DNA from: Ricordea florida
Lineage: Eukaryota > Cnidaria > Anthozoa > Corallimorpharia > Ricordeidae
Assembly (NCBI GenBank): GCA_949710005.1
Contig: OX453273.1
Location: 36,898,038 to 36,962,037, forward strand
Direction: 5' to 3'
Length of the DNA: 64,000 nucleotides
Position numbers and translations under genes: made by a program
The notes under the pieces: model-generated
Seen by the model: the letters and a program-made list of their open reading frames with translations, nothing else
The model's database searches: none
Told to the model about the DNA's origin: nothing
Shown here: piece after piece, positions 1 through 61,500 of the stretch
Position numbering within the stretch: position 1 is the first letter of the stretch
Layout of the letters: each line of letters opens with the position of its first letter

Positions 1-1670
1 AATAACGAATTCATTATCTCAAAAAGTTGAATAGCCTTTTGTGTTAACGTAGTTTAGAAAAATCGGTCACGCGAGTTTATGTTGTGTGTTATTAATAAAC
101 AGGAAGACGCCTGAAGGCGTTAACGCGGGATGTGTTGGTTTAAAATTGCTGACGCAGGGTGTTCTTTTGCTGATTGTGCGATCATGGATGTCCATGGTGC
201 AATCCAACCTGACTTGCACGTGATTCGGAGTTACAGCCAATAAAAATCACACAATTTTTGCGGGACGGGCTCGGGATACCGGAAAGTTTAACAGACAAGG
301 CAATTTTTGACTCCCAAGACGACGAAAGGAATGCGCTACCGAATTTTATACGCTGGCTGACTACGTCATCCCGCGTAATAACAGCTATTAACAGCATTGT
401 CAATAGCTAACATTAATGTTGAACTGAAAAGTACATAAAGCCGGACAAGGAATCCCTGTTTCATAAAATGAATCAAGGCACTTAAGAAAAATAATAATTC
501 AGATACTCTCAATTTATATTTTTTCATTTTTTTTTAAGAATTTCGCGTTTACAACTTCAGTTCTTCTAGGCTGCTTGTTATAGAAACATCCATCTCACCA
601 AAAGCCGTAGAAACCACAATTAAGGTAAAAATGTATATTTTTCGTTTCTTCACAGGGGGTCTGTGAGTGTCATTTTCTTATCACGTTAACAATCCTTGAA
701 AAACAGAAACCCAAACTTTTAACACATGGGCTATCAATGGCAAAGTACTAGGGACACGGCAGTATAGTTTTTATCCCTAGAAGTGGGTTGGACCCTGCCT
801 AAGCACTCAAACAGTTGAGCGACTTTTTCTGTTTTCAGCAAAGTGAAACTTACTAGGAACTATTTGAACTAATGTAAATGGACATTGACAACTTGTTCCT
901 TGGTTTTGTAGCTATATTTCTAAAGTTAAAGCATGTTACTTATAGTGAATAAAGTTATTTGCATCGGAAAGTAATATTGGTCTGTCATTGATACAACAAA
1001 TCTGCTCATAAATTGGACGCAATTTATCGTAATTTTCGACAGTATTAGCTCGCTATCTTTTAATTCCTTTTCTGAGGCAATTTTGCAAAAATACTAAGAA
1101 TAAATGACATCAATCTAAAGCGCCTGGGACCCTTTCAACATAACGTAAGTTTCAGGTCATTTGAAGAAATTCGATTTTTTGACATCCGCCGCAGTTAATG
1201 CGAATCTTGTAGTCAAGCTCTCTTAACGTGGCGCGCACGCGTAAAACGCAATCCGCTGGTCACTGTCAAGATTAGGGTTGCGTGCCTCTCTTGGGCCCGC
1301 AATAATAAACATCGTTTTGAAAATTAGCAATGAACATTATCAAATAGTTTTAATATAGTAAAAGGTTTGAACCCAGGAGTATCAGTAGTTCGTATAGTTT
1401 GATCGTCCGGGTGAGGGTAGTTCTGAAGAGAACTGTTGTTGGTGACTGACGTGTCGACAACCTGAGCGGAAGTCATCTTCAGAGTCAAGTGAATAGTGTT
1501 TGTCAGACGATGATGTTATAAGTCTGGTCTGTTAAACGTGATTGCCAGTTTAGCCATGATGGTATTGGCTGAAAGACTCGTGTAAAGTTTGTTACCAGTC
1601 ATTGGTCGGTTTCGATCCGTCTATTGTTTGTCAAATAGGTCGGTTTTTGGTCCGTCTATAATTAGTCAAA
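1..1670. other. AT-rich stretch, no gene recognised
   Basis: No splice-bounded exon, RNA gene or recognisable transposon end was found. Short open frames here show no family motif. The last few hundred bases run into the 3' flank of the Penelope-like relic on the minus strand. Confidence 0.4.
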
Positions 1671-2165
1671 TTATGTCGGTTTGTTAGAAGTCCGTTTGTC
1701 GGTTTTGTTTTCGTCAAGGATAAGTCGTTTGTAAGGCGCCGGTAGTTGTTGACATCTGTTAAGAGGTGTACGTTCCAAGTTGGTGTACCAGCTTTCCAGA
1801 GTCAGTCGTTGAAAATAGTTTGTACTGTAGGTTAAGCAATGAGCAGAGTCCCAGTCAATGTTGTGGTTTGTCAGTTGACGATGTACAGCAACATGATTGT
1901 TGGTATCACCATTTCTCGTGGCTCGTTTGTGTTCAGTCAGTCTCGTGTTAAGGTTTCTGCCAGTCTCACCAATGTAGGAAGCCTGGCAGTCGGAGCATTT
2001 GATCTTGTAAACTGCTCCCTGTCTGTTGTTAGGTTCGACCTTGTCTTTAACCTTGGTCAGTAAATGTCGTAAGGTGATTGTAATGAGGCAGCAGTGGTGG
2101 AAGAGATTAACGCAATCGCGATTTTCGGATATGCTCGTGACAACTACCCCGAGGCCTGTTCAAGG
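1671..2165 (-). pseudogene. Penelope-like element relic, C-terminal RT edge plus GIY-YIG endonuclease
   Basis: Read on the minus strand, a continuous frame without a useful ATG encodes a segment with VYKIKCSDCQASYIGETGRN followed by RLTEH. This is the GIY-YIG nuclease signature found at the C-terminus of Penelope-like retroelements. The frame closes after PLNRCQQLPAPYKRL with a stop at 1671. Upstream residues (VVVTSISEN, then RHLLTKVKDKV) match the RT-to-endonuclease linker of these elements. The RT core is missing, so this is a 5'-truncated dead copy. The flanking 1371-1670 resembles a Penelope 3' tail, and similar tail sequence recurs at 61921-62090. Confidence 0.72.
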
Positions 2166-2507
2166 TCGAATAGTGTTGCTTGAAAATGCATCAACTTTAT
2201 TAACAGGTTGCCGCTGGTTAAACTGCGTCAAAACATCGTAAAATCTTACAATATTTGTCGATCTTTATTACTCAACAAATTGAGTAATAAAGCCCTGCAT
2301 CAGGGAAACAGAAAGCCGTAAAAAGCTAGAACAAAGGTTTATCTTCCAACTCGGCTCTCTTTTAATCCCCACGGTATCAACGAACGTTTCTCACTGATTC
2401 ATTTTGATTATTCACTTTCGTTCGTGAACACGTTGCTATGGCTCCACCAATAGCGTAGCTTCAAACTTCTCTATATAAATTGTACATAACCCATAATCCT
2501 CTCATTC

Positions 2508-2667
2508 GCTCAGACGAACGGCTAACGCTCGAAACGTCAGCATCTCCCTTTTACCTTACGGTAGTATAACTTACTTTATCAACTGACTTGTTTGATTATC
2601 CCACTTTTGTGTGTTTCAATTCCCCACCGACGCAGCACCACGTTCTTTAGAAACTACCCCCACAATA
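2508..2667 (+). repeat. Penelope-type terminal repeat
   Basis: Contains the GCTAACGCTCGAAACGTCAGC core and a TTACCTTACGGTAGTAT block. It ends in a CACACAAAA-like and GGGGGTAGTTTCTAAAG-like junction (here in reverse). Related copies occur at 25412-25675 and 36879-37028. Confidence 0.55.
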
Positions 2668-3055
2668 TTCAATAAATAGAGGTTCGTCAAATTGAGGCTT
2701 CACTTTTTGTACAAAGTCATCTTGTACCTTGAATGTTTGTTGATCTTTAGTACTCTTACAGTACTAAATGAATACATTGTTTCTCCACCCAAATAAATTT
2801 TCATACAAATTTTTAATGCTTTTTTGACGATAAACAGCAGATTTTCGGCGAGGTTCTACTGACTATGATGATTCTTTTTAAGTATTGATATGTTTCGTAC
2901 AGTTATTGAGCAAGTTGTGGGCATTTTAAGCGAAATATAAAACATTTGTAGGGATTCTGTTGTTTAGATACTCGATCGTGATTGGATAATTTGTATGAAA
3001 ATTTGTTTAGGTGGCATTGGTTCCGGCTAGAGTGACTCTTCAGATTGCGAAATTT

Positions 3056-3550
3056 GATTAATATCACACCTGCTCTTATCGACTTACATTGGCTTCCGGT
3101 AACATTCATAGTTCAGTTGCTCCTTCTTCACTATACAACCAAAGTCTATCCTACCAAAAAGATCTCTTATTCCTGAAACCAGCTGCTGAGTATGCTCTTC
3201 GCTAGTCTGCTGTTCGTTTCTAAAGTCAAGTGCTCTACACTTGGGGATCGGGCCTTTGCTTATACCGCGCCTGTTTTGTGGAATTTGCTGCCTTTATTCA
3301 TATATATAAGAAAAAGTAGCAGCCTCGTCATTTTGAAAAACAAAGTTAAAACATTTCTTTTTAAGAAATCTTTTGATTCGTTGGAAAGTTCTGATGTTTA
3401 ATTTTAAATTCGTTTGGAACTTAAATTTAATTATTGTTATTATTAGCTTTTAGCGATTTGTAACTTAATGTAAAGCGCTTCTGAATATCCTTCTATAGTT
3501 TAAACTCTATGCAAATTCATTATCATTCATCATTCATTATCATTCAAATA
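3056..3550 (+). pseudogene. 3' scrap of a CR1/L2-type LINE reverse transcriptase
   Basis: The sequence reads like the extreme C-terminus of a CR1/L2-group reverse transcriptase. One frame has the ITPALIDLHWLPV motif. After a frame disruption another has TLGDRAFAYTAPVLWNLLP followed by LKNKVKTFLFKKSF, ending at 3401. A short 3' tail finishes in an ATTCATTATC-type microsatellite at 3514-3550, as these LINEs often do. Everything upstream is lost, so it is a decayed 5'-truncated copy. Confidence 0.68.
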
Positions 3551-4440
3551 TCATGAAAACCCCTTCAAAACTCTTTTTCGAACTTGAATTACACACATTT
3601 TCAACAAACAGGCTTCGGGCTCACGTCGGTTTCAGTACACAAAATCTAAATGCAGTTTTCAGTCGCGTAATAAATCTCTTATTGACCCAGCTTGCTCGGG
3701 GCCATACCGGCATACCGGGAGAATATCGGCCCTCTGTTTCGGTCTCCCAGCACGGACCTCGCGCTTGGTCAATAAGATAAATGTACACTGCGCCACACGA
3801 CTTTACTCATTATTAGTCTCGAGTCCAGAGTGTTTACGGTTCTTTGTCCGAGGTTGGACGGCGAAAGATAAAGCGCGGTATAAATAGCATCGATACGTTT
3901 CGCTGGCAGCGATATTTTTCGATCTAACCACGGTATCCCCGATATCAAATTGAGGTATATCGGGATCGGCTCAGCCTCACTCGGGACTAACATGATAGCA
4001 AACAGTGAATTCAGTTGTTCCTTTATAAATTTTGAGTGGGTAGCCAAAACCAAACTGTACTATCGAATAGGCCGACGTGCTCAGTTTCATCATTAAGTCA
4101 GTAACTTTCTTGCGACACAATCAGATAATGAATAGCTTGAAGAAGGTCTTCATCGTGGTTAGAACGAGCTATTTCCAAAATGCGGGCTGCGGAGTGAGGA
4201 GGGCGAGGCGTTTCTCGCGCCTCGCTCGCTGCTTCGTCGGTTGTTGCTCGAGCCATACTTTCCCACATCGCACTTAGCGTCCAAACAAGACTTTTCTTGT
4301 AACCTATCATCAAAACTGTACGTACTCTGGCGTAGCTACCATATGATAGAGCCTAACGGTTATCAGTGACTTTAGTTTGATCCATCAAATTGAAAATTTC
4401 TGGCGAAACATCCGGCCGAATAACACTTCAACCCCGCCAG
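3551..4440. other. No gene recognised
   Basis: Open frames on both strands are short and without family motifs. The region has GC-richer patches, such as the GCGAGGCG block near 4200, but no splice-bounded exon or RNA gene was found. Confidence 0.35.
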
Positions 4441-4448
4441 AGATTTAA

Positions 4449-4655
4449 GGCTGGTTTTCATATGATCGCAGACCATCACTGATCGCAGATCGCAAAATGT
4501 TCTGCGAGCGCCAGTGCGATCACGTATGGAAACACACTTCTGCGATCGTCTGCGATCCTCCGACCGTGATCGCGAACTAGCGTTTCATCTTCTACGATCG
4601 TCTGCGACCAGTTGCGATCGTGCGATCATATACATGGAAACCAAAATTCTCGGCG
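4449..4655. repeat. GATCGC-rich inverted-repeat element (MITE-like)
   Basis: The left end GGTTTTCATATGATCGCAGA is roughly mirrored by the right end GCGATCATATACATGGAAACC. The interior is packed with TGCGATC motifs on both strands. This is consistent with a small non-autonomous DNA element. The LINE inserted 16 bases past its right end. Confidence 0.5.
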
Positions 4656-4670
4656 ATCTGCGATTGAAAC

Positions 4671-4683
4671 GTATCCAATAATA
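4671..4683 (+). repeat. LINE target-site duplication, left copy
   Basis: GTATCCAATAATA, identical to 9950-9962. It sits immediately before the LINE 5' end. Confidence 0.9.
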
Positions 4684-4821
4684 AGGAAGAGCATGCGCGA
4701 GGCCGCCCGAGGTGGACGTGTTGTGTGAAGAGGGATAATAATCCTTCTCCAAATTCTTCCAACCGTGATATAAAGTTACCTTATCTAATATGAAATGATA
4801 AGTTGAATGTTCTAGAAGTAT

Positions 4822-5706
4822 ATGTCGACGAAAGGGCGTAAAAACAAACGTGGTGACAGAGGTTCGCTTGAAGAGGGAGACCTCAACGACGCCAAAAGAC
4901 CCAACATGGCCGCTAGCGGGGACAAGGAAACACTCGAAGGAACCGAAAATCCACCTCCCGAGCCTAGTTTGGCCGAAATTAAGGAGATGCTAGTGGAAAT
5001 ACAAACGTCAGTAGTGAGTATTTTAAAGGAAAACCAAATATTCAAAGAAGAACTTGTGCAGCTGAAGTCAGCGTTTCAAGCTCAACAACGTGATTTAAAC
5101 AAGATGAAAGCTTCATTGGAAGCCACAACGAAGGAAAACCGTGCGCTTAGAGAAGAACTTGCGTCTACGAAGAAGAAATTGAACAACGAAAGTGAAGAGA
5201 CGGAGCGCTTAAGCGAAGAGCTGGATAATTTGGAACAGTATACCCGAAAAAACTCGCTAGAAATTCACGGCATCCCAGAAGATGCCTACACATCTACGGA
5301 ATATGTGGTTATAAAACTTGGAGAAACCTTAAACGTATCAATTGAGCCGGAGGACATCGAAATTTCCCACAAACTCAATACTCGGAATAAGCCTATCATT
5401 GTAAAATTTGTGAGCCATAAAGTTAAGTCCAAACTTTATAAAAGCCGAATAATGTTAAAACGTGTCAATGCTTCGGATGTTTTCCCTTCCAGAAGCTACG
5501 CCGCCGCTGTCGATCGTAAGCCCCGTATATTTATAAACGAGAATCTCACTGCTTACCGACGGAGTATCATCAAGAAAGCGAACAGCATGAGAAAGGATGA
5601 ATTGATTCAAAGCGTTTGGACACTAGATGGAAAAGTTTATGTTAAAACATCGCCGGACGGATCACCGGTAAGGATTTATTGTTTGGAGGATTTAGATAAC
5701 TTATAA
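4822..5706 (+). CDS. LINE ORF1 protein (Transposase_22-like RNA chaperone)
   Basis: A 294-residue protein. Residues 1-50 are basic then acidic and Pro-rich. Residues about 55-150 form a long heptad-patterned coiled coil (QLKSAFQAQQRDLNKMKASL and onward), expected to trimerise. Residues about 150-215 match the RRM-like domain of L1 ORF1 proteins (NSLEIHGIPED, then EDIEISHKL and KPIIVKFVSHKVKSKLY). A basic C-terminal domain follows, with RIFINENLTAYRRSIIKKA. In the family this protein coats element RNA and acts as a nucleic-acid chaperone. The frame is intact. The ATG is the first in frame and starts 138 bases into the element. Confidence 0.9.
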   Translation: MSTKGRKNKRGDRGSLEEGDLNDAKRPNMAASGDKETLEGTENPPPEPSLAEIKEMLVEIQTSVVSILKENQIFKEELVQLKSAFQAQQRDLNKMKASLEATTKENRALREELASTKKKLNNESEETERLSEELDNLEQYTRKNSLEIHGIPEDAYTSTEYVVIKLGETLNVSIEPEDIEISHKLNTRNKPIIVKFVSHKVKSKLYKSRIMLKRVNASDVFPSRSYAAAVDRKPRIFINENLTAYRRSIIKKANSMRKDELIQSVWTLDGKVYVKTSPDGSPVRIYCLEDLDNL

Positions 5707-5932
5707 AGTTTTTAAGATCTGTGCAAACATGCTAGTTTAGGAGAGGGATTTGTTATTGAAAAGGGACAGAGAGACACTCTTACCTTAACTTAAATTTAGG
5801 TTTTTTGCTTTTTTTTTTCTATACCATTATTATTTTCGATCTTGTTTTTCTGAGCTTTATTATTTTTATTCAAAAACGTAGGTGTTAAGTGTAGTTGTTT
5901 TTCAAGCTTTGTTTTCTGTACAGGTAGTTACC

Positions 5933-8900
5933 ATGAATAATTCAAGAAATCAAAAATGTATAATAGTATCACTAAATGTGCGTGGCATTAGGGATCAGGT
6001 AAAGAGGAAGAGCATATTCTCGTATCTAAAAGATCAAAAGGCTTCTTTTTACTTTCTCCAAGAAACTTTTTCAGAAGCAAGTGATGAAACCATATGGAAA
6101 AAAGAGTGGGGAGGGAACATTATTTTTTCGCATGGTAGTCGGCAAAGCAGAGGTGTCTGTATTTTAATTGATCCATCACTGAATCAGAAATTGGAGCATT
6201 CCTTTACTGATAATTCTGGTCGAGTAGTGCTAATAACATTGAATTTCAATTGTTTAAAATTGTCACTCTGTAATGTATATGCCCCTAATAACCAAAGTGA
6301 ACAATTGCTATTTATCCAAGAACTTAATAATTGTCTGATTGATCAATCAGAGGTGACGATGCTAATTATAGGCGGTGATTGGAACTGTACCCTAACAAAG
6401 AAAGACAAAAAAGGTGGATTAGCATGGAAACCTACGAATTTTAGAAACTGTATTTTAATTACCATGGACATGCTTGACCTTGTTGACATACAAAGAGAAC
6501 GACACCCTAACGTGAATAAATTCTCCTATTTTTCGAAGGCCTTAAAGTTGAAATCAAGAATCGACTTCTTTCTTTTGGCCAAGGAGTTGAAAAAATATGT
6601 CTCAAAAGTAGACATCCAGACATCAATAGCTCCAGACCACAACTTAATTTACCTGTCGCTTAATTTGCCTCAAGAAACCTCCAGAGGCCCTGGCTTTTGG
6701 AAATTTAATAATACCTTACTAGAGGATAATAAATATGTCGAAAAAATTAAAAGAATATATCCGCAGTTACGCGAGAGATATAAAACCGCTGTTGATAAAC
6801 AAATGTTATGGGAACTTCTAAAGATGGAAATCAGATCTATAACTATCTCCTATACTAAAGGTAAACGCAAATTGCTTAACAAACGTGAACTGGAAATCAA
6901 GGAAATGCTACACAATCTTGATGACATAATTTGCAATAGTGATGATCTTCAAAATATTGACCAAGACTTAAAACTGTATGATAACCTTAAAAAGGAGCTT
7001 CAATCACTGTATGAACGTAAAGGGAAAGAAGTGTTGTTTAGGTCGAAATGTCGTTGGATTGAAAAAGGTGAAAGGCCAACCAAATATTTTTTCAATCTTG
7101 AGAAGAGAAACTACAACAAGAAGACCATTTTGGAACTTGAATTGGACAATGGAGAACTCTTAACCGAGGAAAAGTTGATCTTGCAAGAAATTGAATCCTA
7201 TTATAAAGATCTGTATACATCCAAAGTTTCGGCAACCCTGTCTGACTTTGACCAATTTAGTCAAAACCTTGAAATTCCTCATCTTTCTAATGATGAACGA
7301 GACAGATTGGAGGGTCCTCTAAGTTTTGACGAATGCAAACAAATACTAAACTCCTTTAGCAATGGAAAATCACCGGGAGAAGATGGCTTTACAGTTGAAT
7401 TTTACCAAAAGTTTTTTGACATTTTAGGGGAAGATCTTGTCGATTGCCTCAACCCTTCTCATGAAACAGGACAGCTTTCTATTTCTCAACGCAGGGGTGT
7501 GATAACCTTAATACCAAAAGAAGAAGAATCACTAGTAACTTTAAAAAACTGGAGACCGATTACACTTCTCAATGTCGACTACAAAATAGCGTCGAAAGCA
7601 ATAGCGAAGAGAATTGAACCTGTCTTACCAAGTTTGATACATTCTGATCAAACGGGATTCATTAAAGAGAGGTATATTGGAGAGAATATTAGGCTTATAA
7701 GTGATCTTCTGGAACAAACCGAAAAAGATCAGAGCACAGGAATTCTGTTGTCTCTAGACTTTCGTAAGGCTTTTGATACTTTGGAATGGCCATTGATACA
7801 ATACATGCTAAGTAGGTATAATTTCGGAACGAATCTCAGAAAGTGGATTGAGATCTTTTACACCAATGTAGAAACTGCAGTACTTAACAATGGTTTTGCC
7901 ACTAATTGGTTCAAGCCCTCTTCTGGAGTGAGACAGGGCTGTCCTTTATCGCCTTTTCTTTTTATTTTAACTGCAGAACTAATGTCGAATAAAATACGTC
8001 AAACTGACAGTGTAAAAGACATTTGTCTTTTTAATAATGAAATCAAATTAAGTCAATTTGCAGATGACACAAACCTATTTTGTGCAAATGTAGCATCGGT
8101 AGAAGCGGCAATGGCTGTCGTTAATCAGTTTGGTGAGATCTCTGGACTTAAACTCAACAGCGAAAAGACGAAAGCAATGTGGCTTGGCAAATGGGCTAAT
8201 AAGCGTGACAAGCCGTTAAATCTTAAGTGGGTCCACTCTCCGACAAGGTTCTTAGGAATATTTTTATCATATGACAAAAAGGGTAATGACAACTTTAATT
8301 TTAATCTTAAGATACAGAAACTGCAAACGAATCTCGATATGTGGAGATCGAGGGACTTAACGTTATTCGGAAAGGTGTTAATAATAAAAGCACTAGGAAT
8401 TTCTTCACTTGTCTATTCCGCTTCGAATGTACAGGTTCCCGGTGAGATTATAGACAATGTTAAGGGAAGATTATTCCGTTTTCTGTGGAAAAATAAGAAA
8501 GACAGAATCAAAAGAGTAGGTTTGTATCAAGACTATGACAAAGGAGGACTTCGCATGGTCGATTTTGAAACATTTGTGAAATCGTTGCGCTTAGCCTGGA
8601 TCCCTAGGCTCCTCCGTTCTGGTCACCAAAACTGGAAGGTGGTTCCTGACCACTGTTTCAAAAAACGAGGAGGCTTAGAACTCTTACTCAGTTGCAACTA
8701 TAATATTGATTTCCTAGATGATCTTCCGAAATTCTATAAGGACGCGTTAAAATTTTTCAGCGAACTTACATCTCTTTATTCCAACAATTCTTGGCGTGAT
8801 CAACTGTTGTATAACAACAAAGACATTTTAATCGGAGGAAAATCTTTCTTTAATAGGGAGTGGTACTCGAAAGGAATACTTGAAATCAGAGATCTTCTAA

Positions 8901-9668
8901 GACGAGATGGTAGCTTTCTCTCTTTTAGTAACTTTCGTAACAAGTATAGCCTAAAAAAAACAAACTTTCTTCAGTTTTATCAGGTAATCTCTGCTATTCC
9001 AAATCATTTCCTGTTAAAAGCGAGAACACAAGATTCCCCTACAGCCTTAAATTACAACGACCTGACTTCTTTTCAATTAGGAAATGAGATTGAGATAAAC
9101 CTTTTGAATGCTAAAGCGAAAGAACTTTTATTGGCTCCTGGTTAAAAAAACTCATACTTGTAAACAAACTGGCTTTAAACGATGGGAAACCGTTGTTAAA
9201 TTAAACGATGAACAATGGAAAAACATCTACAACTCAGTTAGGAAAATATGTAAAGAGAATAGACTAAAGGAGTATCATTTCAAATTTATTCATAGAATAA
9301 TAATTACTAAAAAGGAACTTCACAGGTTTGGAGTTAAATCTGATGATAATTGTCTTTACTGTGGCGAACAAGACTCGATTGATCATACGTTCATTGAATG
9401 TCCATTTACCAAGCGCTTTGTTAAAACCTGCATAGGCTGGTTCAATGATACAAATGGCTCACAATTTAATCTAACAACTGTCGAGCTTTTATTTGGTATT
9501 CCTAACCCCTCTTCAGTTCTACTTAAGAAACTTAACTACACTCTTTTATTCATGCGTCGCTATGTAAACATCAGGAAATTAAATGAGGAAGCACTGATCC
9601 TTTCAGATTTTATCAGTGAAATTAAGCCCAGATATCGATTGGAAAATTTCATAGTTAACGCCTCCTAG
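5933..9668 (+). pseudogene. LINE ORF2 (endonuclease-reverse transcriptase) with one frameshift
   Basis: The start is the ATG at 5933 (MNNSRNQKCIIVSLNVRGI). An AP-type endonuclease spans residues about 8-245: SLNVRGI, FLQET, NVYAPN, GGDWNC, SRIDFFLL and SIAPDHN carry the usual catalytic positions. The reverse transcriptase spans about 480-770, with GKSPGEDGF, LKNWRPITLLNVDYKIASKA, SLDFRKAFDTLEW, GVRQGCPLSPFLF and the active-site FADD in LSQFADDTNLF. The first frame stops at 9145. The rest continues from within 9108-9145 in the next frame to 9668 and contains the C-terminal zinc knuckle CLYCGEQDSIDHTFIEC. A one-base indel near 9128 explains the break, so this copy is probably unable to move by itself. 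Confidence 0.9.
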
Positions 9669-43211: not shown

Positions 43212-43648
43212 AAATGTTGTTTTGTTAATGAAAAAAATTTCAGTGCATCACTACAAGGAGTGATTCAATTGGTGTCACCTTTTTTTCCTGTTTAGTTAGA
43301 TTAATATACATATGTGGTGGTGCTCAGAAAATTATAAACTCTTGATGAAAAAGTTATCATAAATCTTTAATCATTAAAATTCATCTTATATTCTGAGCCA
43401 AGCAAGTGATTTTAACCATATGCTGATACAAATGGGTTTGATTTTTTTCCTAGGGAATAACTATATATATATATATATATATATGCCATACTCATTGGGC
43501 TACGTCTTCTGCAATATCATACCAAGCTGTAGATGCTTCATAGAAATGAGTCAGAAAGGCTATAAAAATATGCAGCATTGTAACTGTTAGAGATGTAGTG
43601 ATTCTTCATGGAACAAGTGCCAGAAAATTTCATAGCAGATTTTATCTG

Positions 43649-46600
43649 ATGTTTGTGAATTCAAATATGGAGCAAACATCAATTCATCATCATGGATATA
43701 GAAACAAAGAAGATAACAGCACTGGGAAAACCAAGAGTTTATCAGAAGCCCCATTTAATGGCATGAACCCAGGAAATTTTGTCAGTGTATCAACTTATTG
43801 TATCAGTGGAAAAATTGTTACTCTACTTCCTGATGCCCATCAGGTAATTGTGAAAACATGGGGTTCAAGTTCCTCCTTCCAGTGCCTTCTCAGAAAGCAA
43901 GGAGTTAAAACAGAAAAATTCACTCTATCAGAGCTGCGAAGATTAAAAATGATTGGGGCAGTTGATCAGGATGTGAAAGTTTGCTCTTTCATCGATATAG
44001 ATTACTTTGTCCAGGTCCTTCAGAAATATGATCAACTAAACAACACTGAAAATGCTGCCAAAATTCAATTATTGCCACCCATTGACATTAGTGAAGCAGC
44101 AAATAATGGAGATCAGGAAACATCAGCATCATCTAAAGAAACGAATGGTCAATCGCAGCCAGCATTCTCTCTTTCATTTACAGTTTTTGAGTTTCATGAA
44201 GGAATGCAAGATCTTGTCTGTTTGTCTGAGGTTAAGAATGTCTTTGACAGTCATTATCGGAGGCCGGAACTTTTTTACCCTTTTTTAGAAAGTTTAAAAA
44301 TATCAAAGGAAGTCATTGCAGTAGAAAACAGGCAGGCTCCTTTTGGTTGTGAATCAGATAAGGAAATGCAAAGATTGTTTATCACAAGAAAAGATGTTGA
44401 GAGAATCGTGTGGTTTACGTCAGCTTTTCTTGATGTGGTTCTGCCTGAGATCACATGGAGTAGCACAGAGAAAGAGCCAAGTAATTTGGACACCCATGAA
44501 GAGGCCAATAAGCATACTAGGAAAATAAGCAAATCCTTGTCACCTTCCACTTCTTCTGATGAAGGTGATTTTGCTAATACTTATACACAGGCAGGATTTT
44601 TGGACCATTGTAATGACAGAGCAAAATCAGAGAAAGAAACTTCTGCATGCAATAGTTGTTTGTTTCAGGGGGAATCACAATCTTCTACCTCTAACTCATC
44701 CCAATTGTGTAATAGGAACACTTCATCATCATCATCTTTGTTATCATCATCATCATCGTTGTCGTCATTATCACTATCACCACTGATGTCAGTGCCAGTG
44801 ATTCGAACTTGCCAGGTGGATGGTAAGGTTGTTGTTTGCATCCCTGATCTTCATAAAATTGTCATTGAGCTGTATGGACAAAGCGTGCAAGTTGGGTATT
44901 ACATGCAAAGACTTGGCATTAACAGACACCGGTTTGAGAGTGTTCACCTAAAATGCCTAAAAGCCCACAATATCCTGAGCTCAAAAGCTACTGTCTGCAC
45001 CTACATTACAAAGAAGGATGCTGAAAGGCTGTTGAAAATGTATGATGAATGCAATGCTCAAAGCAAGTTGCACACTGTAAAGTGGAGTAAACCTATTTTT
45101 CTGGAAGAAGCTGTCCAGGCGACATCCACTGACCAAATTTCAGCCACAGAGGAAGAGAATCCCTTCCAGGAAACTGATCAAGATGAAATAAAGATTCTTA
45201 CATTCATAAATAACAAAAAAGTCTTTGTGTCCATGCCAGATGTTCACAGAGTTGTTCAGTTTTTAAATGGACAAAGTGTGCAGTTGCAGTACAATCTTGA
45301 CAAGCTTGGCATTGTCAAACACAAATTCTCTTACTCCCAGGTTTATAGATTGAAGGCCCTCGGCGGTCTCAAAAGAACCAGCATTTGTACGTTCATATCC
45401 AAAACCGATGTTGACAAACTGTTACAGTATTATGCTACATCAGAGACCAGGTCAAAGTTGGGACTCATTCAATGGGTGCCACCAATAGCATTGAATGATT
45501 CAAAACAAACTTTGATGCCAGTGAATACTGAGAACACCTGTGGCATCCTCACACCAGATGCCCTTCATTGTGAGTCTGGCAGAAGTGGTGATAATGCTGT
45601 CACCACCCCAGAGGATTACTCTTTATCCGACCTTTATAAAGCTTTTTTGGGTGATGATGTTGACACCATCAGTGGGTCCACCAACAACAAAGATCACCTG
45701 TCATTATCGTCATTGTGTAGCGCTGGAGACTCAAGTGAAGAGGCATCTAGTAACGATTGGGACAATGTGCTGCAATGTCCTGTAACAACGAATGATGTAA
45801 CTAGTGGCATTGTAACATGTGCCAGCATTGTCACCACAGTTGCACAGCCCAGCATTGATATTAAGGAGCGAGAATTGGTAATACCCCCAAGTCAGTACCT
45901 GCCAGTAAATTCACTGCAATCTGAAGTCTGTACAACTGAACTGGAAGTGGCCAATTGTACTGCTCAGGTATTTGGCATTGACCGCATCAGCTGTGGCATG
46001 CAATTGTACAGTTCCAATCCAAACAAGGAGGCTACATGCACTAGTCTGATGTGGTCACACCCACATTATCAACCTGTGTCAAGGCACAGTACCACAAGCA
46101 GCACTGCACAACTCTGTTGTAAACCACACATGAACACACATGGTACCATCACAAGTGTTCCATGGCAGACAACAAGTACTATACATGGCTGTCATTACCA
46201 TTCGCATGGCAGTGGTCAGCAACATATTGGAAGGAGTTATTTTTTGAATCCAGTTGCAACAAGGCGTGGTAAGATAATATTGTATTTTATGACTTGAGCA
46301 AAATACAGAGTGTATTTTATTCAAACATTCATTAACATTATTAATTATGGATTAGACACCTGTACACACATAAGCATCATTATTACAAATTCTCAAAAAG
46401 AAAGAAAGGAGCCAGCAAGATGATTAAAGCATCATGCTTCATGCTGCATGAATCTTCCAGGGCTTCAATTTCACGTACAAATCTGCAAATCGAGAGGTAC
46501 CCTTTAAAAATTTTGAGGAATTTCTTTGATACATTACTTATAAGTATTTTCAGGTTGTCACTGACAGTATGAAAAACAGTAGCACCTCTAGTACACTGAC

Positions 46601-49600
46601 TCTGAAAGTGAACTAACCATGTAGGATGTCAACATACTAGGCACTGGATCTGGGTATGTGTGTTTCAAGTCCTTGTTTATGCCCTGGCCTACGAGGCATA
46701 TCTTTATAATTTATGATGTTGGTTGTGGAAACATAGGATAGGTACATGTTTTATAATTATCTGCAATGCGAGTTTATATGCACTGCAACTATTAACATCT
46801 GTCTTACCATGTGCTGGCTAAAACAGATGAATGTTGCTTGGGCTGCAAAAGACCTTACAATAACTCAGATAGCGATGTTACCTCCTCCCAATCACAGACG
46901 AAACAGTATAAAGGTGAGATACTTATTATTAGCTAAAATTAATAAAAATGGTGTTCTATGAGAAATTCAAATTAAATAGAACCAAATGGTTGGACTGAAT
47001 GATAGTACTAGCAGTTTTGCTGTTCTTTAGATACCATACAGTAAATCCTCTTTGGAAAACAGTCCTAAGAAAATATGTGCACTAATTGGTTAGAATTCAT
47101 GTTTCTATAACTCATTATAGGTCACCACTAAATTTTCTCCGATTCTTATTGGTTTAAATTGATTATGTGACGCAATAGTGTTCATCCGTGAAGACACACT
47201 ATCAGCGCATAGTGCCCTTCTGAGGAAAATACCTGGATGGATAGTACCTGTCCATGAAAATGTGAATTTTTTGACAGTTATACCATAATTTTTAGGCAAT
47301 GTACGTTGCGAATTATTGAAATTTCAGGCTGTTTTTATGGATAAATATTTGATTGATCTGCATTTAGTGGGTTTTGACTGTTTTTCAACTGGCACACGGA
47401 AGAAAATTTAGTGGCGAACAATAAAGACAATTTAGAGTGTTTATGTCTCTGAACTATCGGTCCGATAGTTGCTCCTGGGAAATCTGATGTTCTTAAAACT
47501 AGCATATTTTCCCTCGAAGCTTCGCTTCTTGGGCAAATATTTGTTTTAAGAACATAAAATTTCCGTGGGGCAGCTATCAGCCGATAGTTCCTCAACAGAA
47601 ACACTCTGTTGTTTGAATAGAAACACAGAACTAGCACGAGCTGTTGACATAATGGTGACCCGACCAGAGAGATTTGTTATTTGTTGTTCTCCCAAACTTC
47701 CACTGGTGTTTCTTTAACTCCGTAGATTATTGTACATGTTTTCTATGTCTTAAATGTAGCTGGGTGGCTTATTCAAGGTACCAAGTCCATAATAACATTT
47801 GGGTGGCAAGTTCAATAGTGGGCTGGCTCATTGATTTAGCTGATTGCAGGATGTACAGTGTTTGGGTATTTTTTGTTTTGAAATTTTCTCACCCTCCTTT
47901 TACTGCTACACGAATCCTGAGCTCTAAGAATTAATACAATTTTTGAAATAAACCCACAGAAGAACTGGCTAATAGTCCATCGACAGTCTTGTAACATATG
48001 ATTTTATGTAAATTGTTCCAAATCAATGGTAGGATAACATCACGCACTGAACTGCTTAGATGTGAGTAAATCATAGTACTTAATTTCACCATAGAATATT
48101 GCATGATATTGTTAGCTTAATACATTTCTTCTTCTAGAGAGAAGTCGCTTATTAGAGGGGTCAGCTAATTTGAGGGGGTTTGCTCAATAGAGGATTTGTG
48201 GTAAATGCAAGGCTGCCATCAACTTTCTTATCCTTAGAGAGTTGTTATTTCCCCCTCCCCACCCCTCTTGATGATAGACTCATGGTTACCCTCAAGTATT
48301 CTCATATCAGAATAATTAACAATTATTCGCCTCAGGCTCGGTGATTATCGGTGAATATTCACCGATAATCACTGAGCCTGAGGCAAATAATTGTTTTAGT
48401 ATAAATACAAAGGTGATCATTTCAAAAAAGAAAAGAATTTTACAACACGAAAAAGTTTTATTTCATCAAAAGCGCGCCAAAGGCTGGCAGCCATTTTGTT
48501 CGTCGAGGTGATTATCGGCTAATAATCCGAGATAGCGAACCAATCAGAGCGCGCGATTTTGTATAATCACTAACATAATAATACTAACAGCAATTTGGCA
48601 GTGGTTACAGAGGACTTTGATCATGATTAGAAATGATGAGATCCATTTTGAGCTATAGACAGGAAGATTTTCCAGATTATGAAGTTAATTTATGGATTGC
48701 TGTTTGTCAGTAACAGCAATTATTATTAATATTATTGGAAGTAATGAGTTTTTCCCATGTACAGCTGATAGTGAAGATATGTTGAAGACACTTGAGCGCA
48801 AAGACATTGAAATGAAGTTTCTTTATGGTAAGTGTCTACATATCCTTGTGGCGATAGAAGTTAAAGTTTTGAGCTAAACATTGAGAGATCGTTTCACCAG
48901 GTAATCTGTGCGTACAGTGAGAAAAACGTAGAGAAAGTTATGTGCCATGTCAACAATCTTTGCTATCCTCAAAAGTTTCTCAAAACTCTTCAACAGTTTT
49001 GTCCTTCTAAAGATGTATTTTTGACATAATTATACTGTACACGAACGCTTTTTATTATATTTTGGTAGCCCACGCATAGTCCCGCCCAATGCGTAACCCC
49101 CCCCCCCCCCCCCCACTCCATGCCTTATCTATTAATTTTGTTGTTGAAAAATTTTTGCCTATGATTATTATTTAAAAGTTTTAATTTTAAAACACAAATA
49201 GCCCATAACAGCCAATCATCTTGATTCTCACCAGATGCTTATCAAGAAAACGTAAAACGCGAGAGAGAGCTAAGACAAGAAATTCAAAGGGAGTTGGACC
49301 AAGTCAAGGGTGAGTGAAGACTGCCATAGGGCAGACTGGGGACTGACATACGTATCTGAGGTAGAATCATACTTGAAGGTTTGAGGGATGCGGCTCACTT
49401 TGCCGTGAAGTTAAGCGAGGCTTCCATACCCTTTCGCTCTCAAGTTAACTGAAATAAGCAAAGTTAACGAGTCGTTTGGCGACAGCACTTTCATTGCCTA
49501 AATCCAGATTTCGAATTCGAAACCGACACATTAGCTATTTATAGTCGATGTTCTTTTGTTCTGTGTGCAAAAATAGCGACGTTCAGCTAATTTGGCTCTA

Positions 49601-52600
49601 GACTAAGGGAGAAAATCGGAGCGGGATGGAGAGTTGTACAGTATTCGCTGTTTTTCATTAGCCATATTTGAGTGCCAAACATTTGGCGGCAGAGAAGAAT
49701 AGTGGAATAAGAATAACGGAAATATTTTTTGTTGGAATAATTAAATAATGCCATTTTGTGGGGCGGAGTAACGGAATGACGACTTTCTTTGGAATAGATT
49801 ACATTGTCCCGAAGAAGTAGATTTTTTTTAAGTTCCCTTTTACTGGAATAATGGAACAACGAAAATTTCCTAGCACGAATAATGAAGTGATATGCACCCG
49901 ATTATTCCTCTTCACGCCCCTAGAAAATGTACAGAAATCCTATCTTTGCTTAATATGATTTGGGCAATGAAAACCCTATAAAGTACTTATCGGGAAGCTC
50001 GACGTTACCTCAGTAACTGACTTAGGGCGCGACTCGACAGAAATAATAATAATAATAATAAATGTATTTAGCACTGACGTACGAATTGGGGACACTGTAA
50101 AGCACAAATGAAATCAAAGCAAATCATATTAAATCAAATCAAATCAAATGTTCGTTTTTGTGGAGAGGGGAAAACTGGAGTATGACGCCGAGGTCGGGAA
50201 TCGAACCCGGGCCACATTGGTGGAAAGCGAGAGCTCTCACCACTGCGCCAAATCCTCTCCCCCAAATGAAAGCTGATCAAATTCCTGATACTCCGTGCCT
50301 CGGTGTACAGCGTTTTGCTAACGGGCGGTAAGTGGCATCTCTTTGGTGAAGATGCTGAAGTCGTTATTATGGACACCATGTTGGACTCGGGTCTACGTCA
50401 CTTATTCCCTGGCCCTTTCATTTGCCTGTTTACTGTTATTCTGCATTTAGCTGAACATTCTCATTTGTTCTTTGCAGCTTCCAATGCAGAACTTTTACAG
50501 AATGTACAGAGGAAAGAGTCTGAAATGAAAATTTTGCACGGTATGCGTAAAATATTTTCATGGGTTTTCCGAAATTTCCAAAGCCACAGCATCAGAGAAG
50601 CGTTTCCCTTACAACGTGATGGTGTGTTGCAAGTGAATTAGTTAATTCTGCGTCTAATTAAAGCTGATCTCCTCGCCTGCAAAGAGAAGACGTTTGGAGT
50701 TGCTCTATGAATTTTACTATTAGGGATCATACAGAGGACGCAAAAATAACCATGAATTTTTTCCCTCCCAGCACTCGACCTTGTTAAGATTTTGTCCCAC
50801 TTTCAGAATTTTAATCATCAAGCGACCAAGAACCTTTTTCTTTTGGGGACCGTTCATTTCTTACGAGGGAAGGTGGGGATTGGGGGGGTCATGTGAAATA
50901 TTTTAGCAATACTTTCCAAATCCGAAATTGACTTCTCTTTCTTTTAATGTGGGGGGGGGGAGGGGGAGTCATGCGAAAAAATTGGCAAGCTGAGGGGGAT
51001 CATACCATTATTAAATGGTACTTTCCGAATCACACCAAACCCCCCCGGTCTTCCCCCCCCCCCACCCTCATGAACGGTTCCTTGGGTGTCTTCGTTTCAC
51101 TTTTAATCTTTTTCCAATACTATAACTAAGGAAACCTGATATACAATAATCTAGAACATATTCTGTTTGTTGTCAGTACCGAGTCTGTCGTTTGAAAGGT
51201 CATTTCTAACGGTCAATCGCAGCACGTGCAATATTTAGTACACTGTGATAGATGTCTTTCAGTTCGGCACTGCCACTGCAGGCAAACTCGCAAAAAGCAG
51301 AATTCGAGTTCTCCCAATAGGAGTCGAACCTACTAACTTCTGGTTACAAGTTCAGACGCTCTAACACTGAGCTATAGGAGACTCGCGGGGGAAGTCAATT
51401 TAGTACATTGTTCCAATAAAAATACCAGGTCTGACATCATCTTTGTCATTACTATCATTATCATATGGTGGCAGCGTGGCCGAGTGGTTAGGGCGCTGGA
51501 CTTGTAATCTGGTCACGATTCCGGGTTCAATTCCCGTCCTGACCACTGCCTGGATATGTAGTACGGTGATCGCGAGTCTCAGATCCTTGACCACGCTTGT
51601 AAATAGCCTACTGGTCCGTCTCCCACCAGTTTGAGAATCTTAGAATCAAAGTTTATGTTCTGTTGTAATTAGTATTAGTAGGCGTGGAGCTAACGCGTGG
51701 AAGTACTGTCAATTTATTACATCCACTTTGAAATCACAGGTGATCCCTGCAATTTGATTGGCCCATAGCAGTGTGATTTTTTCACGAATCGCTCTAAGTC
51801 TCGTCTTGTTTTGTATTACTAATTAGGCCTATTAAATTGTGCAATTTCAAAACTGGATGTAATAAAGTGGTTATTGAACTTCGTGTTGTGCAATTTTGGT
51901 CTAAAATCATACTTGTGATTTAAAATTGAACTCGCGCTGCGCGCTCGTGTGATATTTGAATCACGCGTATGATTTCAGATCAAATTGCACTCCACTCAGT
52001 TCAATTAACATTATAAATCGTAATTTTTTTATTGTATTTTTTTTTTGTCTTTTCTAATAACCACTGCGCAAAACATTAAGTCACGTTATGTCATGATGTT
52101 TTCCAGAATAATTTTAATTTAATGTCTTTCTCATTATTCCTAGATTCATATAAACTCCAGATTGACTTGGAAAGAAATCAAAGAGTGGATTTAGAGCACG
52201 AGATTGCTGAATTAAAAGGTATGACACTTTGTTTATCTCTCGAAGGAAAGTGTTCATAATTATTGAGTGGACAAGCCTTTTACTGACGATGAACTGAGGA
52301 GGAGAATCGTGGAATTTCTTAGTTTTCCCCATGACAATTGCTTTTCAGTCAACGTTACCCGAGTAAAATGGTATGAAGCAGGAGCCCATTACCAGTAGTG
52401 TTCCTATGTGTTGGATAGCGTCCCCGGCACTGTATCAAATAAGGCTAATTTTAGAGCTTGTATTTCCCGCAAAACTCTCTTCAAGACAAGAAGACTAAGA
52501 AACATCAGGGGAATCTTGAGCACTTTTGCTAAAACTAGCCGAACGTAAATTTTCATGTATTCGCATTTATTTCTTCTTCCTCTACGGATATATTACAAAC

Positions 52601-54280
52601 TCGACAATGACCGTCTCCCAGTTGGTTTGATAGCTCAGTTGGTTAGAGCTTTGCACCGGTTTTGCATAGTCATGGGTTCGAATCTCCTTGAAGCCTGAAT
52701 TTTCTCAGGGGCTGGTTGGTCGAAGGCCGATTAGCGCTAAGCCAGGGTTAAATTTTAACCCGGGTTTCTTTTCGTCTTATTAAAAAGTATTTTCTCCGAT
52801 AACTTTGTCTTTTTTTGGAGCATACAATCATCAAATTTTATTCAAAAAGAATTATACTGAACGTGCTTTTTTAGCTCTCCTATCTGCATTTTTTTTTCTC
52901 TTTATTACTAAAGACACACAGAAGTAACTTACAATAATACACACGAAAATATACTTCCAACAATTCGTTACAATTCAAATTTCGCACTAACCCTGGGTTA
53001 CCTTAACCCTGCTTCGAACAACCTGGCCCAGAAAGCTCAAGTTGCTGGGGGCTCACATGAAAAATGCTCCACAAGAAAAAAATGAATATTAAATGAACAT
53101 CATGTTTACATTCGATTTAACAGAGTTTGTCTTCTTCACCTGAGAGTAGTCAAGCCTCTAGTGCCATTCCCCTGGCCAAGCCCCAGAGAATTTTGTTTAA
53201 TTAACAATTATTCGCCGAATCACTGAGCCTGAGGCAAATAATTGTTTTAGTATAAATACACAGGTGATTATTTCAAAAACAGAAAAGAAAAACATTTTAC
53301 AACACGAAACCATTTCATTTCATCAAAAGCGCGCGAACGACTGGCAGCCATTTTTGTTCGTCGAGATGATTATCGGCTGATAATCCGCGATAGCGAACCA
53401 ATCAGAGCGCGCGATTTTGTATAATCACCTGAGTATTTATACTAAAAAGAATTATACTGAATGTGCTTTTTAAGCTCTCGTATCTGCATTTAAATTTCGT
53501 TCTAACCCTGGGTTACCTTAACCCTGCTTCGAACAACCCGGCCCAGGTCTCATCTTCGCAACTGCTGAAGTTGCTCACGTAAGTGCGACGATCTTTCACT
53601 TATTAAACCTTCCTTGCGCAATTCACATATCTAGCCAACTCTGAACTGTGCACCTAACCCTCCCCTCCCCCAACCCAACAAGTTATTGCCCCCGCAGGGT
53701 TCCGGCCCAGAGGCCGGAACCCGAGGAGGCACCCTAATGTTCCCCGCGTAAATAAGAAGTATCGTATGGTCGTAGTGTTAGTATGCGAAAATTTTCTCGA
53801 TTTGACGAAAATAGGCGCGCACGGTGGTCCCGGTTAATTTTCAGCATGTGCGCCTGGCAACGAGTCGTCACGATTTCATTCCAAGCTTTCTTATTTCATT
53901 CCAAGCTATAATGTAAACCCATCCTAAACACGATATGTATGAGGATTTCCATTAACCCAAGAAACAAAGTGTGATAATTGACAAAACACAAACACAACAA
54001 GGAATTTGCACTCTCAAACGAAAACTACATTTCAAAGGTTCATAACAAATACATGGACAACCACATGCAGTCTTCATTCAGTTTTTACAAAGTCGGGGGC
54101 AGATTTAGTGACAACTATGACTAGTAGTAAGTTACACCTTCATTTCACATTCATTTCAAACGTTGATGTGTTAATTCATTTCCGCTTTAGTAAGATGTGT
54201 TTATCTTTCTTGAACCTTCTTTTCCAGGCAGATTTGGGATCATTGTCAAGACTCCTCCGATAAAGCAGGAACGGGTATAA
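43649..54280 (+). CDS. Protein with repeated SKI/SNO/DAC (Dachshund-homology) domains and C-terminal coiled coil
   Basis: Seven coding exons: large exon to 46268, then 46827-46913, 48765-48827, 49235-49309, 50478-50540, 52144-52218 and 54228-54280. All junctions are phase 1. The start is ATG 43649 or the better-context 43667 (1005 residues from the latter). DHD-like domains lie at residues about 36-144, 378-483 and 507-614, plus a degenerate one at 167-267. Each reads like the SKI/DACH fold: VSMPDVHRVVQFLNGQSV, YRLKALGGL, CTFISKTDV. Poly-Ser (about 353-375) comes from a TCA microsatellite. A Ser/Thr-rich linker leads to CCLGC, then coiled-coil exons (RERELRQEIQREL) like the DACH C-terminal box. 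The last exon ends PPIKQERV, containing a possible sumoylation site. SKI/DACH proteins are transcriptional corepressors. The 5' UTR exon is unknown, and the last exon is the least certain. Confidence 0.72.
44722..44790 (+). repeat. Coding TCA/TCG microsatellite (poly-Ser)
   Basis: An in-frame TCATCATCATCA run, interrupted by TTG, encodes Ser/Leu stretches between the second and third DHD-like domains. Confidence 0.85.
47433..47609. mobile_element. Inverted-repeat element in an intron
   Basis: GAACTATCGG opposes CCGATAGTTC, and ATGTTCTTAAAAC opposes GTTTTAAGAACAT. Outer ends AGAGTGTTTATG and roughly CAGAAACACTCT also pair. Confidence 0.65.
48316..48570. mobile_element. MITE family with TATTCACCGATAATCA motif, copy 2
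   Basis: Same ordered blocks as 34654-34931. A perfect GGTGAATATTCACC palindrome lies inside. It is in the intron before the exon at 48765. Confidence 0.78.
49099..49115. repeat. Poly-C run
   Basis: Seventeen or so C in a row within an intron. The exact length may be affected by sequencing. Confidence 0.75.
50040..50264 (-). mobile_element. tRNA-headed SINE
   Basis: On the minus strand the head is GGATTTGGCGCAGTGGTGAG (A-box region), then GGTTCGATTCC (B box). The body ends in a TTATTATTATT tail at 50044-50062. No mature tRNA fold with matching acceptor arms was found, so it is not called as a tRNA gene. Confidence 0.65.
50846..51083. mobile_element. G-rich MITE family, copy 2
   Basis: GGGGACCGTTCATTTCTTAC opposes ATGAACGGTTCC. 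It shares AAAAATTGGCAAGCTGAGG with 14547-14860. Confidence 0.65.
51190..51384 (-). mobile_element. tRNA-headed SINE (Thr-like loop)
   Basis: Minus strand: CTCCTATAGCTCAGTGTTAG, loop CTTGTAA, B box GGTTCGACTCC. Acceptor-like ends CTCCTAT and TTGGGAG pair only partly. The body runs on downstream, as in SINEs. Confidence 0.65.
51468..51650 (+). mobile_element. tRNA-headed SINE (plus strand)
   Basis: GGCCGAGTGGTTAGGGCGCT, loop CTTGTAA, then GGGTTCAATTCCC. Outer GGCAGCG and CACTGCC nearly pair. The spacing does not fit a clean tRNA, and extra sequence follows the head. Confidence 0.55.
52622..52900 (+). mobile_element. tRNA-headed SINE with CCTGAATTTTCTCAGG body
   Basis: GATAGCTCAGTTGGTTAGAG (A box) and GGGTTCGAATCTCC (B box), then AAGCCTGAATTTTCTCAGG. 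Tail text AAAGAATTATACTGAACGTG recurs at 53446-53470 after the next MITE. Confidence 0.65.
53201..53433. mobile_element. MITE family with TATTCACCGATAATCA motif, copy 3
   Basis: A shortened left end (TTATTCGCCGAATCACTGAG) and an otherwise shared order of blocks with 48316-48570. Inserted near SINE-like sequence. Confidence 0.75.
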
Positions 54281-59975: not shown

Positions 59976-61500
59976 CTATGTCAGACAGTCTCGCTGGTGT
60001 CTAGCCAAATGGCTTGCCTGTGAAAACGTCATTCCACAGTTATCGCAGTTAAAAGGTCTCTCTCCAGTATGAGTGCGTATGTGATTATTTAAAGTTGTTG
60101 GTCCTGAGAATGAGCGCGAACAGAAGCCACACTTAAATGGCTTATCGCTCGTATGTGTCTCCACGTGGTTTCGAAGGTCTGAAGGAGTAGCGAATGAGAG
60201 CGTGCAATGTCCGCACTGGTATGGCTTGTGCGGGGTTTTGGGACAAATATGCAATTGAAGCAGCACCCTCTGAGTGAACGTTTTATAACATTGTTTACAG
60301 CGCCACATACTGAACTCATCTGGTACTATCCCGGATGTTGGAGTCTCGAACGGGTGTGAGTACTGTAGGCTCAAGTCTTTTGTAACATGTGACGGGGAGT
60401 ATGAAACATGGGGCGAAGCCATCATTTCCAACCCGCGTCCTGTTTGATGGTATTTAACAGCACTTTCTATTGTAGTAACTTGACGTGGTTCGTGATGCGC
60501 TGAAGAAATCAAAGAAGAATTGGTGAAATCCCATTACTTTTACTGCTGTTAATGTTGTTATGACTAATGCTACTACTCCATCGTTCCGGATCCTCAGCTG
60601 CTACTGCTATTGTTAATAAGCTAAGGAAAATATTACTGCCACGAATACCGCTATTGCCACTGCTGTTACTGGTCATTGTTACTGCAGCTACTACTGACGG
60701 GCAGCTGTTGCTGCGGTTTCTATACTGTCCTGTTACTTCTGCTGCTTAGTGCTCAGGACTGAGGTTGTTGTTCCTTCTATTGTACCTCTAACGCAGTTAC
60801 CGTTTCGACTGCTACTTTTACTACTACGGTCCGCTGTTGCTGCCGCTGAACTATACTGTCCTTTTAAAGGTGCTATGCTACTGCTTCTGCTCAGCTCATG
60901 ATTTCACTTCGGCGGACTGAGACTGTTGCCTCTTTCAATGCACTTCCATTTCTGTTGGTACTGTTGCGACTTGTGTTAATACCACGGCTGCTGTTGTTGC
61001 TACTACTATACTGTTCTTTAAGAGTGGCAACCTACTGCTTCCGCTTAGCTCATAATGCTACCAGAGACTGAGCCTGTTGCTCCCTCTACTGCCCCTGTAG
61101 CGCTGTTGGTCTGTTTCGAATACTACTTCTATTATTACGGCTGCTGTTGCTTCTACTAGTACTACTATATTGTCCTGTTAGCTAGTCAGAGGGCTGTTAC
61201 CTCTTCCAGAGCACTGACTTCTACTGCTGTGGATACTGTTGCGACTAGTGGCATGACTACGGCTGCTGTTGCTGCTACTACTATGCTATCCTGTTAAGAA
61301 TGCTACTCTCCTGCTACACTCATAATATTATGAGTGACTGAGGCTGTTGCTCCTTTTATAGTACTTCTAGACCGCTGAATTGCTGTTGCGACTGTCACTT
61401 CGATTTCACTTCATTTGTTGATGCTGCTGGTGTAAACTCTACCGGCTAGCTCAGTTGGTAGAGCACAGGACAATCGTGTGGGAGGTTGTGGGCTCGGCCC

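Follow-up and report, generated by a model that had tools for sequence, protein, structure and literature searches.

A Ricordea florida gene with four tandem Dachshund-homology domains, a proposed multivalent chromatin-binding regulator of anthozoans

The Dachshund-homology domain (DHD) has a winged-helix fold whose wing contains an additional helix; it typifies TGF-beta corepressors and the retinal-determination gene Dachshund. DACH carries one such domain, and the SKOR/Fussel/CORL proteins are DHD-containing SKI relatives with a SAND-type SMAD4-binding region. PMC2944819 describes on the DACH1 DHD a positive face, made of helix 2, strand 4 and the loop between helix 3 and strand 5, as a proposed DNA site, whereas the corresponding face of SKI and SnoN is closer to neutral, with a conserved groove as the proposed site of protein binding. 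PMC4344507 reports a DHD-like C-terminal domain in DNTTIP1 (MiDAC), a dimeric protein, which binds DNA and nucleosomes nonspecifically and has no obvious sequence homology to DHDs; a CLPQ motif is suggested there as characteristic of the DHD. Here we describe four tandem DHDs on a single exon in a 64,000-nucleotide stretch of the Ricordea florida genome (contig OX453273.1, positions 36,898,038 to 36,962,037 of the forward strand; hereafter the window). We propose, with a probability of about 0.6, that the locus is a protein-coding gene for an anthozoan multi-DHD protein whose array arose by intragenic duplication and which acts as a multivalent chromatin-binding regulator with coiled-coil dimerisation.

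Four Dachshund-homology domains on one exon

The domains, D1 to D4 (Table 1), lie in a stop-to-stop open frame of 915 codons (43550-46297, + strand), the second longest in the window after the 1,087 codons of a retrotransposon and ahead of frames of 296 (retrotransposon) and 249 codons. From its first ATG at 43649, 882 intact codons run to the stop; an ATG at 43667 is an alternative possible start. The initial annotation had placed SKI/SNO/DAC-type repeats on one long exon here, with boundaries close to ours, and the open frame, the profile comparisons below and a match of the whole protein to Pfam profile PF02437 (SKI/SNO/DAC DHD; hmmscan E 1.6e-16, 60.4 bits, curated cut-off 24.5 bits) bear this out.

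Three protein searches, which scored 7,984, 7,988 and 130 candidates, returned 26 different relatives (20 in the first, 24 with an alignment, 17 with the D3 region), the first 20 sharing 38-59% of residues with the query over 19-95% of its length. Six of the 26 come with an organism: Oculina patagonica and Actinostola sp., which a taxonomy look-up places in Hexacorallia, and Stylophora pistillata, Nematostella vectensis, Montipora foliosa and Actinia tenebrosa, which we take to be Anthozoa. Relatives with the same architecture occur in other anthozoans, and the array is conserved among the relatives found: counting a domain as present if 70 residues or more align, D3 and D4 occur in 26 of 26, D2 in 25 and D1 in 22. 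Mean identity to the window protein is 63% in D3, 58% in D4, 37% in D1 and 30% in D2, and 10-20% in the linkers, N-terminus and tail. A chance open frame was rejected in view of the relatives. That the gene is an artefact of any kind (chance frame, pseudogene or mis-joined sequence) is very unlikely given them, to the point of being negligible: it has been seen in R. florida in genomic sequence alone, which would favour such a view, but the 882 intact codons, the 20 relatives of the first search and the in-phase downstream exons with splice signals contradict it.

Cut out singly, D3 matches PF02437 above the cut-off (E 9.3e-11, 41.8 bits), D4 (E 0.0026, 17.9 bits) and D1 (E 0.055, 13.6 bits) stay below it, and D2 of the window protein has no match; the expectation that each repeat would hit the profile held for the protein as a whole and, repeat by repeat, for D3. 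Identification of D1 is aided by the protein of Nematostella gene LOC116608993, whose D1 passes on its own (27.8 bits). D2 cut from the proteins of Nematostella, P0016 and P0023 likewise gave no Pfam match, and D2 of P0001 gave a sub-threshold one (E 0.1). Profile-profile comparison of the family domain alignments with hhalign gave 99.9% for D3-D4, 99.2% for D1-D3 and 99.1% for D1-D4, and for the pairs with D2 97.1% (D4), 97.0% (D3) and 95.6% (D1); none of 100 column shuffles equalled the real score for D1-D3, D1-D4, D2-D3 or D2-D4. The models predicted for D1, D2 and D3 match DHDs of known structure when compared with the PDB, and the D4 model (block predicted local distance difference test, pLDDT, mostly 83-94, partly 62-74) has its elements in the same order as D3. 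Helix 3 of D2 is absent from the prediction in R. florida. The possibility that D2 is an unrelated spacer was rejected on its profile matches, the shuffles and its predicted fold; because it retains that fold, the array, initially counted as three clear copies and one decayed, is better counted as four. We give very little credence to the idea that the repeats belong with other winged helices, for example the N-terminal domain of SMARCB1/INI1, the PUFD of BCOR or the domain of DNTTIP1, and are not DHDs.

The initial annotation also saw a W-x-x-P-I or PPI motif behind each clear copy. WxxP[ILVT] is present in D3 and D4 (25/27 each), as claimed, and is found in 4/26 rows of D2 and in none of 23 of D1, where only P[IV] occurs (16/23); W-x-x-P is a trait of D3 and D4. 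At the CLPQ position, D3 has CIPD in 25 of 27 rows and CVPD in two, never CLPQ, and D4 has xMPD or xVPD in 24 of 27. We do not treat CLPQ as defining, because the SKI-type (CYAE) and SKIDA1-like (PLAE) DHDs of the same genome lack it.

Downstream exons and neighbouring features

The predicted start and the donor after 46268 stand, but the protein does not end there. Some relatives have a C-terminal coiled-coil-like region, and tblastn with these located downstream exons in the window that are in phase and match it. Exons 2-6 are each flanked by AG and GT and all are in phase 1. Many relatives' C-termini read ..GK[LIP].., which we read as read-through of the same G/GTAAG donor in genomic contigs; P0019, which comes from another source, has 803 residues including the coiled coil; its contig is no longer than 2,677 bases, and since about 268 bases remain for introns we read it as a spliced transcript of that source. 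Exons 3 and 5 both have 63 bases, exons 4 and 6 both have 75, and the paired units are similar, so that tandem exon duplication looks likely. The translation of exons 3-6 reads as a charged helix that lacks both Pro and Gly; coiled-coil Pfam matches are sub-threshold. Candidate exon 7 was chosen from five rows of a scan requiring a [VIL]KxE motif; its frame and IKQERV tail, a SUMO-acceptor-like motif, resemble the VKQEPL and IKQEKP ends of relatives. Joined, all exons give a predicted product of 1,011 residues.

Just past D4, the motif EDYSLSDLYKAFLGDDVD (45611-45664, + strand; residues 655-672) is kept by coral-type relatives as YSISDLYKVFVGDD and, in the comparison among relatives, is not conserved in Nematostella; it is perhaps a partner-binding peptide. 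Elsewhere, the window holds a non-LTR (long terminal repeat) retrotransposon (4816-9668, + strand), an open frame on the minus strand with a GIY-YIG endonuclease match (1671-2159; E 2.3e-5), possibly from a mobile element, and, also on the minus strand, a frame with several C2H2 zinc fingers (59976-60533; PF00096 E 1.2e-21, three stretches).

Table 1. Window coordinates of the multi-DHD gene and of the retrotransposon frames
Feature	Position	Strand	Residues	Description
Exon 1	43649..46268	+		N-terminus, D1-D4, disordered tail; GT donor 46269, phase 1
D1	43775..44098	+	43-150	DHD; basic face
D2	44177..44479	+	177-277	degenerate DHD; acidic face
Linker D2-D3	44480..44788	+	278-380	Ser-rich near end; pLDDT < 50 over 274-380
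D3	44789..45112	+	381-488	best-preserved DHD; CIPD and WSKPI motifs; basic face
D4	45182..45499	+	512-617	DHD; SMPD and WVPPI motifs; basic face
Exon 2	46827..46913	+		Ser/Lys-containing linker; AG acceptor, GT donor, phase 1; found by reading the sequence
Exon 3	48765..48827	+		coiled-coil unit a (ADSEDMLKTLERKDIEMKFLY); tblastn with relatives, splice sites
Exon 4	49235..49309	+		coiled-coil unit b; tblastn with relatives, splice sites
Exon 5	50478..50540	+		second copy of unit a; tblastn with relatives, splice sites
Exon 6	52144..52218	+		second copy of unit b; tblastn with relatives, splice sites
Candidate exon 7	54228..54280	+		last residues IKQERV and stop codon; TTTTCCAG acceptor
Retrotransposon, ORF1-like	4816-5706	+		coiled-coil frame
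Retrotransposon, main frame	5882-9145	+		endonuclease and reverse transcriptase
Retrotransposon, zf-RVT piece	9108-9668	+		different frame

Other DHD genes of the genome and the origin of the array

A PF02437 search of the R. florida assembly (538 Mb, 48 contigs) found four places: the multi-DHD gene, a DACH exon (L007), a SKI-type gene (L005) and a gene that we take to be SKIDA1-like (L006), the last three with one DHD stretch each in the frames scanned. One long frame of L005 (C1:3559500-3565500, 2557-4785, + strand) carries a DHD, a SMAD4-binding domain (6.3e-30) and a coiled-coil-like stretch; L005 could be SKI- or SKOR-type, and no second SKOR-type gene was picked up in this one search. 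L006 (C8:2003000-2009500, 1443-3707, - strand) is a frame of 754 codons that holds a single DHD and stretches rich in Lys. The multi-DHD gene is separate from all three. Unlike DACH, it has four DHDs, and D3 reads CIPD where the DACH of the same genome reads CFPQ. From SKI and SnoN, which have one DHD, it differs in number and in the tree, and from them as from L005 also in that no SMAD4-binding domain (PF08782) appeared among the matches at E <= 10 of the window protein and of six relatives (0/7); a SMAD4-binding region of the SKOR/Fussel/CORL type was not found in it either. SKIDA1 (DLN-1), judged by L006, shares with it a basic DHD face and the lack of that domain, but has one DHD and is a separate gene. 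DNTTIP1, as reported in PMC4344507, has one DHD-like domain per chain and dimerises by a different domain, and serves us as a functional model.

When 103 array domains and six reference DHDs (three PDB chains, three from the same genome; 83 columns) are placed in one tree, each of D1 to D4 forms a single clade, and all of them lie on one side of a branch from the SKI, SnoN, DACH and SKIDA1-like references (99/96), a side that counts as a clade only with the root placed outside it. The groups stay when four long rows or D2 are left out (SH-like approximate likelihood ratio test, SH-aLRT, 80-100 and 93-99). The DACH of the genome pairs with DACH1, apart from D1-D4, and the SKIDA1-like DHD groups with the references on a long branch. 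That the multi-DHD gene is simply the SKI, DACH or SKIDA1 of this species was rejected on the separate genes L005, L007 and L006 and on this separation. The four-DHD layout seems to predate the anemone-coral split, and we read the gene as an old additional DHD gene; on the simplest reading, we infer that a DHD was duplicated within one gene before that split and that the copies then had separate fates.

Surface charge, candidate mechanism and alternatives

With face charge taken as the net charge from helix 2 through strand 5, we find means of +6.1 in D3 (4 to 8, 27 rows), +4.4 in D4 (2 to 6, 27 rows), +4.3 in D1 (0 to 7, 23 rows) and -2.0 in D2 (-5 to 1, 26 rows); the remaining core of the domains is near neutral (means -0.8 to +0.6). 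Reference values are +4 for DACH1, +6 for the DACH of the same genome, +4 for its SKIDA1-like and +1 for its SKI-type DHD, -1 for SnoN and -2 for SKI. Given these values, D1, D3 and D4 resemble DACH, unlike D2, whose acidic face suggests protein contacts.

What could such an array do on chromatin? We envision that D1, D3 and D4 would bind DNA or nucleosomes through a basic winged-helix face like that of DACH1, that D2 would have become a unit for protein contacts or for structure, and that the predicted C-terminal coiled coil would dimerise the protein, so that six basic DHDs would be presented along chromatin. By analogy to what is reported for SKI/SnoN with N-CoR, a repressor complex might be recruited through the DHD groove, the least supported step. 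In its most specific form, which we hold tentatively and with less than even confidence, these proteins would be a previously undescribed anthozoan class of multivalent chromatin readers with three DNA- or nucleosome-binding DHDs and an acidic protein-binding one. Dimers held by the coiled coil would bridge adjacent nucleosomes or DNA sites set apart from each other, and cnidarians would thus have a way to repress genes in the Dachshund/SKI manner by means of the array, not of partner proteins. The "corepressor" role suggested initially is a guess.

Alternatively, the array might be a scaffold of the SKI/SnoN kind, whose DHDs bind only proteins (corepressors, SMAD-type partners) and make no DNA contact, a possibility that we regard as unlikely. 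SKI and SnoN are described in PMC2944819 as protein-interaction modules without DNA binding whose DHD contacts N-CoR, and the acidic face of D2, the SKI-like coiled-coil-like C-terminus and the match of the D3 region of the family profile to SKI and SnoN chains would fit; yet D1, D3 and D4 have basic faces (means +4 to +6), like that of DACH1 and unlike those of human SKI and SnoN, the SMAD4-binding domain is unlisted in the seven proteins scanned, and the CLPQ groove residues are lost, which makes SKI-like partner binding doubtful. It is also conceivable, and in our view rather improbable, that D3-D4 is the only working module and that D1 and D2 are remnants in decay that no longer have a role. 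Between three anemone-type and four coral-type relatives (four of the seven assigned by name, the rest by similarity; 12 pairs), identity is 53-56% in D3/D4, 28% in D1 and 22% in D2, the alignment shows no D1 in P0018, P0019 and Montipora and neither D1 nor D2 in the Actinostola model, and D1 and D2 of R. florida sit on long terminal branches. Against this, D2 is aligned in 25 of 26 relatives and keeps its predicted fold, its columns L216, D249 and A259 are invariant in 21 sequences, the linkers diverge more than D2, and in 19 of 23 rows the D1 face stays at +3 or above.

Several observations weigh against our preferred reading, that of a multivalent chromatin-binding regulator. Only D3 exceeds the Pfam cut-off when cut singly, so that a plain Pfam scan would reveal one clear DHD. 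The fold of D4 is assigned from its profile and model confidence, without a separate PDB match; D2 is weak over residues 221-240 of the whole-chain model (block pLDDT 39-40), and when D2 is modelled by itself its best Foldseek match has E 0.017, none reaching E <= 0.001, with an eIF1-type row among the DHD rows (E 0.094). D1 is missing from P0018, P0019, P0020 (Montipora) and P0024 (Actinostola), the last also being the sole relative without D2, gaps that may be an annotation effect. An earlier tree with three references gave the same grouping with D3 (87/93) and D4 (91/84) not fully supported, and both trees are limited by their 80-83 columns and long branches. Coiled-coil periodicity (period 3.5) is weakly above chance, being matched by 176 of 5,000 shuffles. 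A basic face is also present on the SKIDA1-like protein, and counting charges does not measure binding; with CIPD and xMPD/xVPD in place of CLPQ, the groove need not act as in SKI/SnoN. For R. florida itself, the gene is known from genomic sequence.

The DHD is a known domain, and the array appears to be a new way of using it; a multi-DHD protein is undescribed among the open-access titles and abstract openings listed. The four-DHD array of anemones and corals shows that the DHD is usable as a repeat, and the natural variants D1-D4 are a means of asking what surface decides whether DNA or protein is bound by a DHD. The early-animal toolkit thereby gains a further DHD gene, whose members are annotated in the databases as "uncharacterized", "hypothetical" or "ski oncogene-like".
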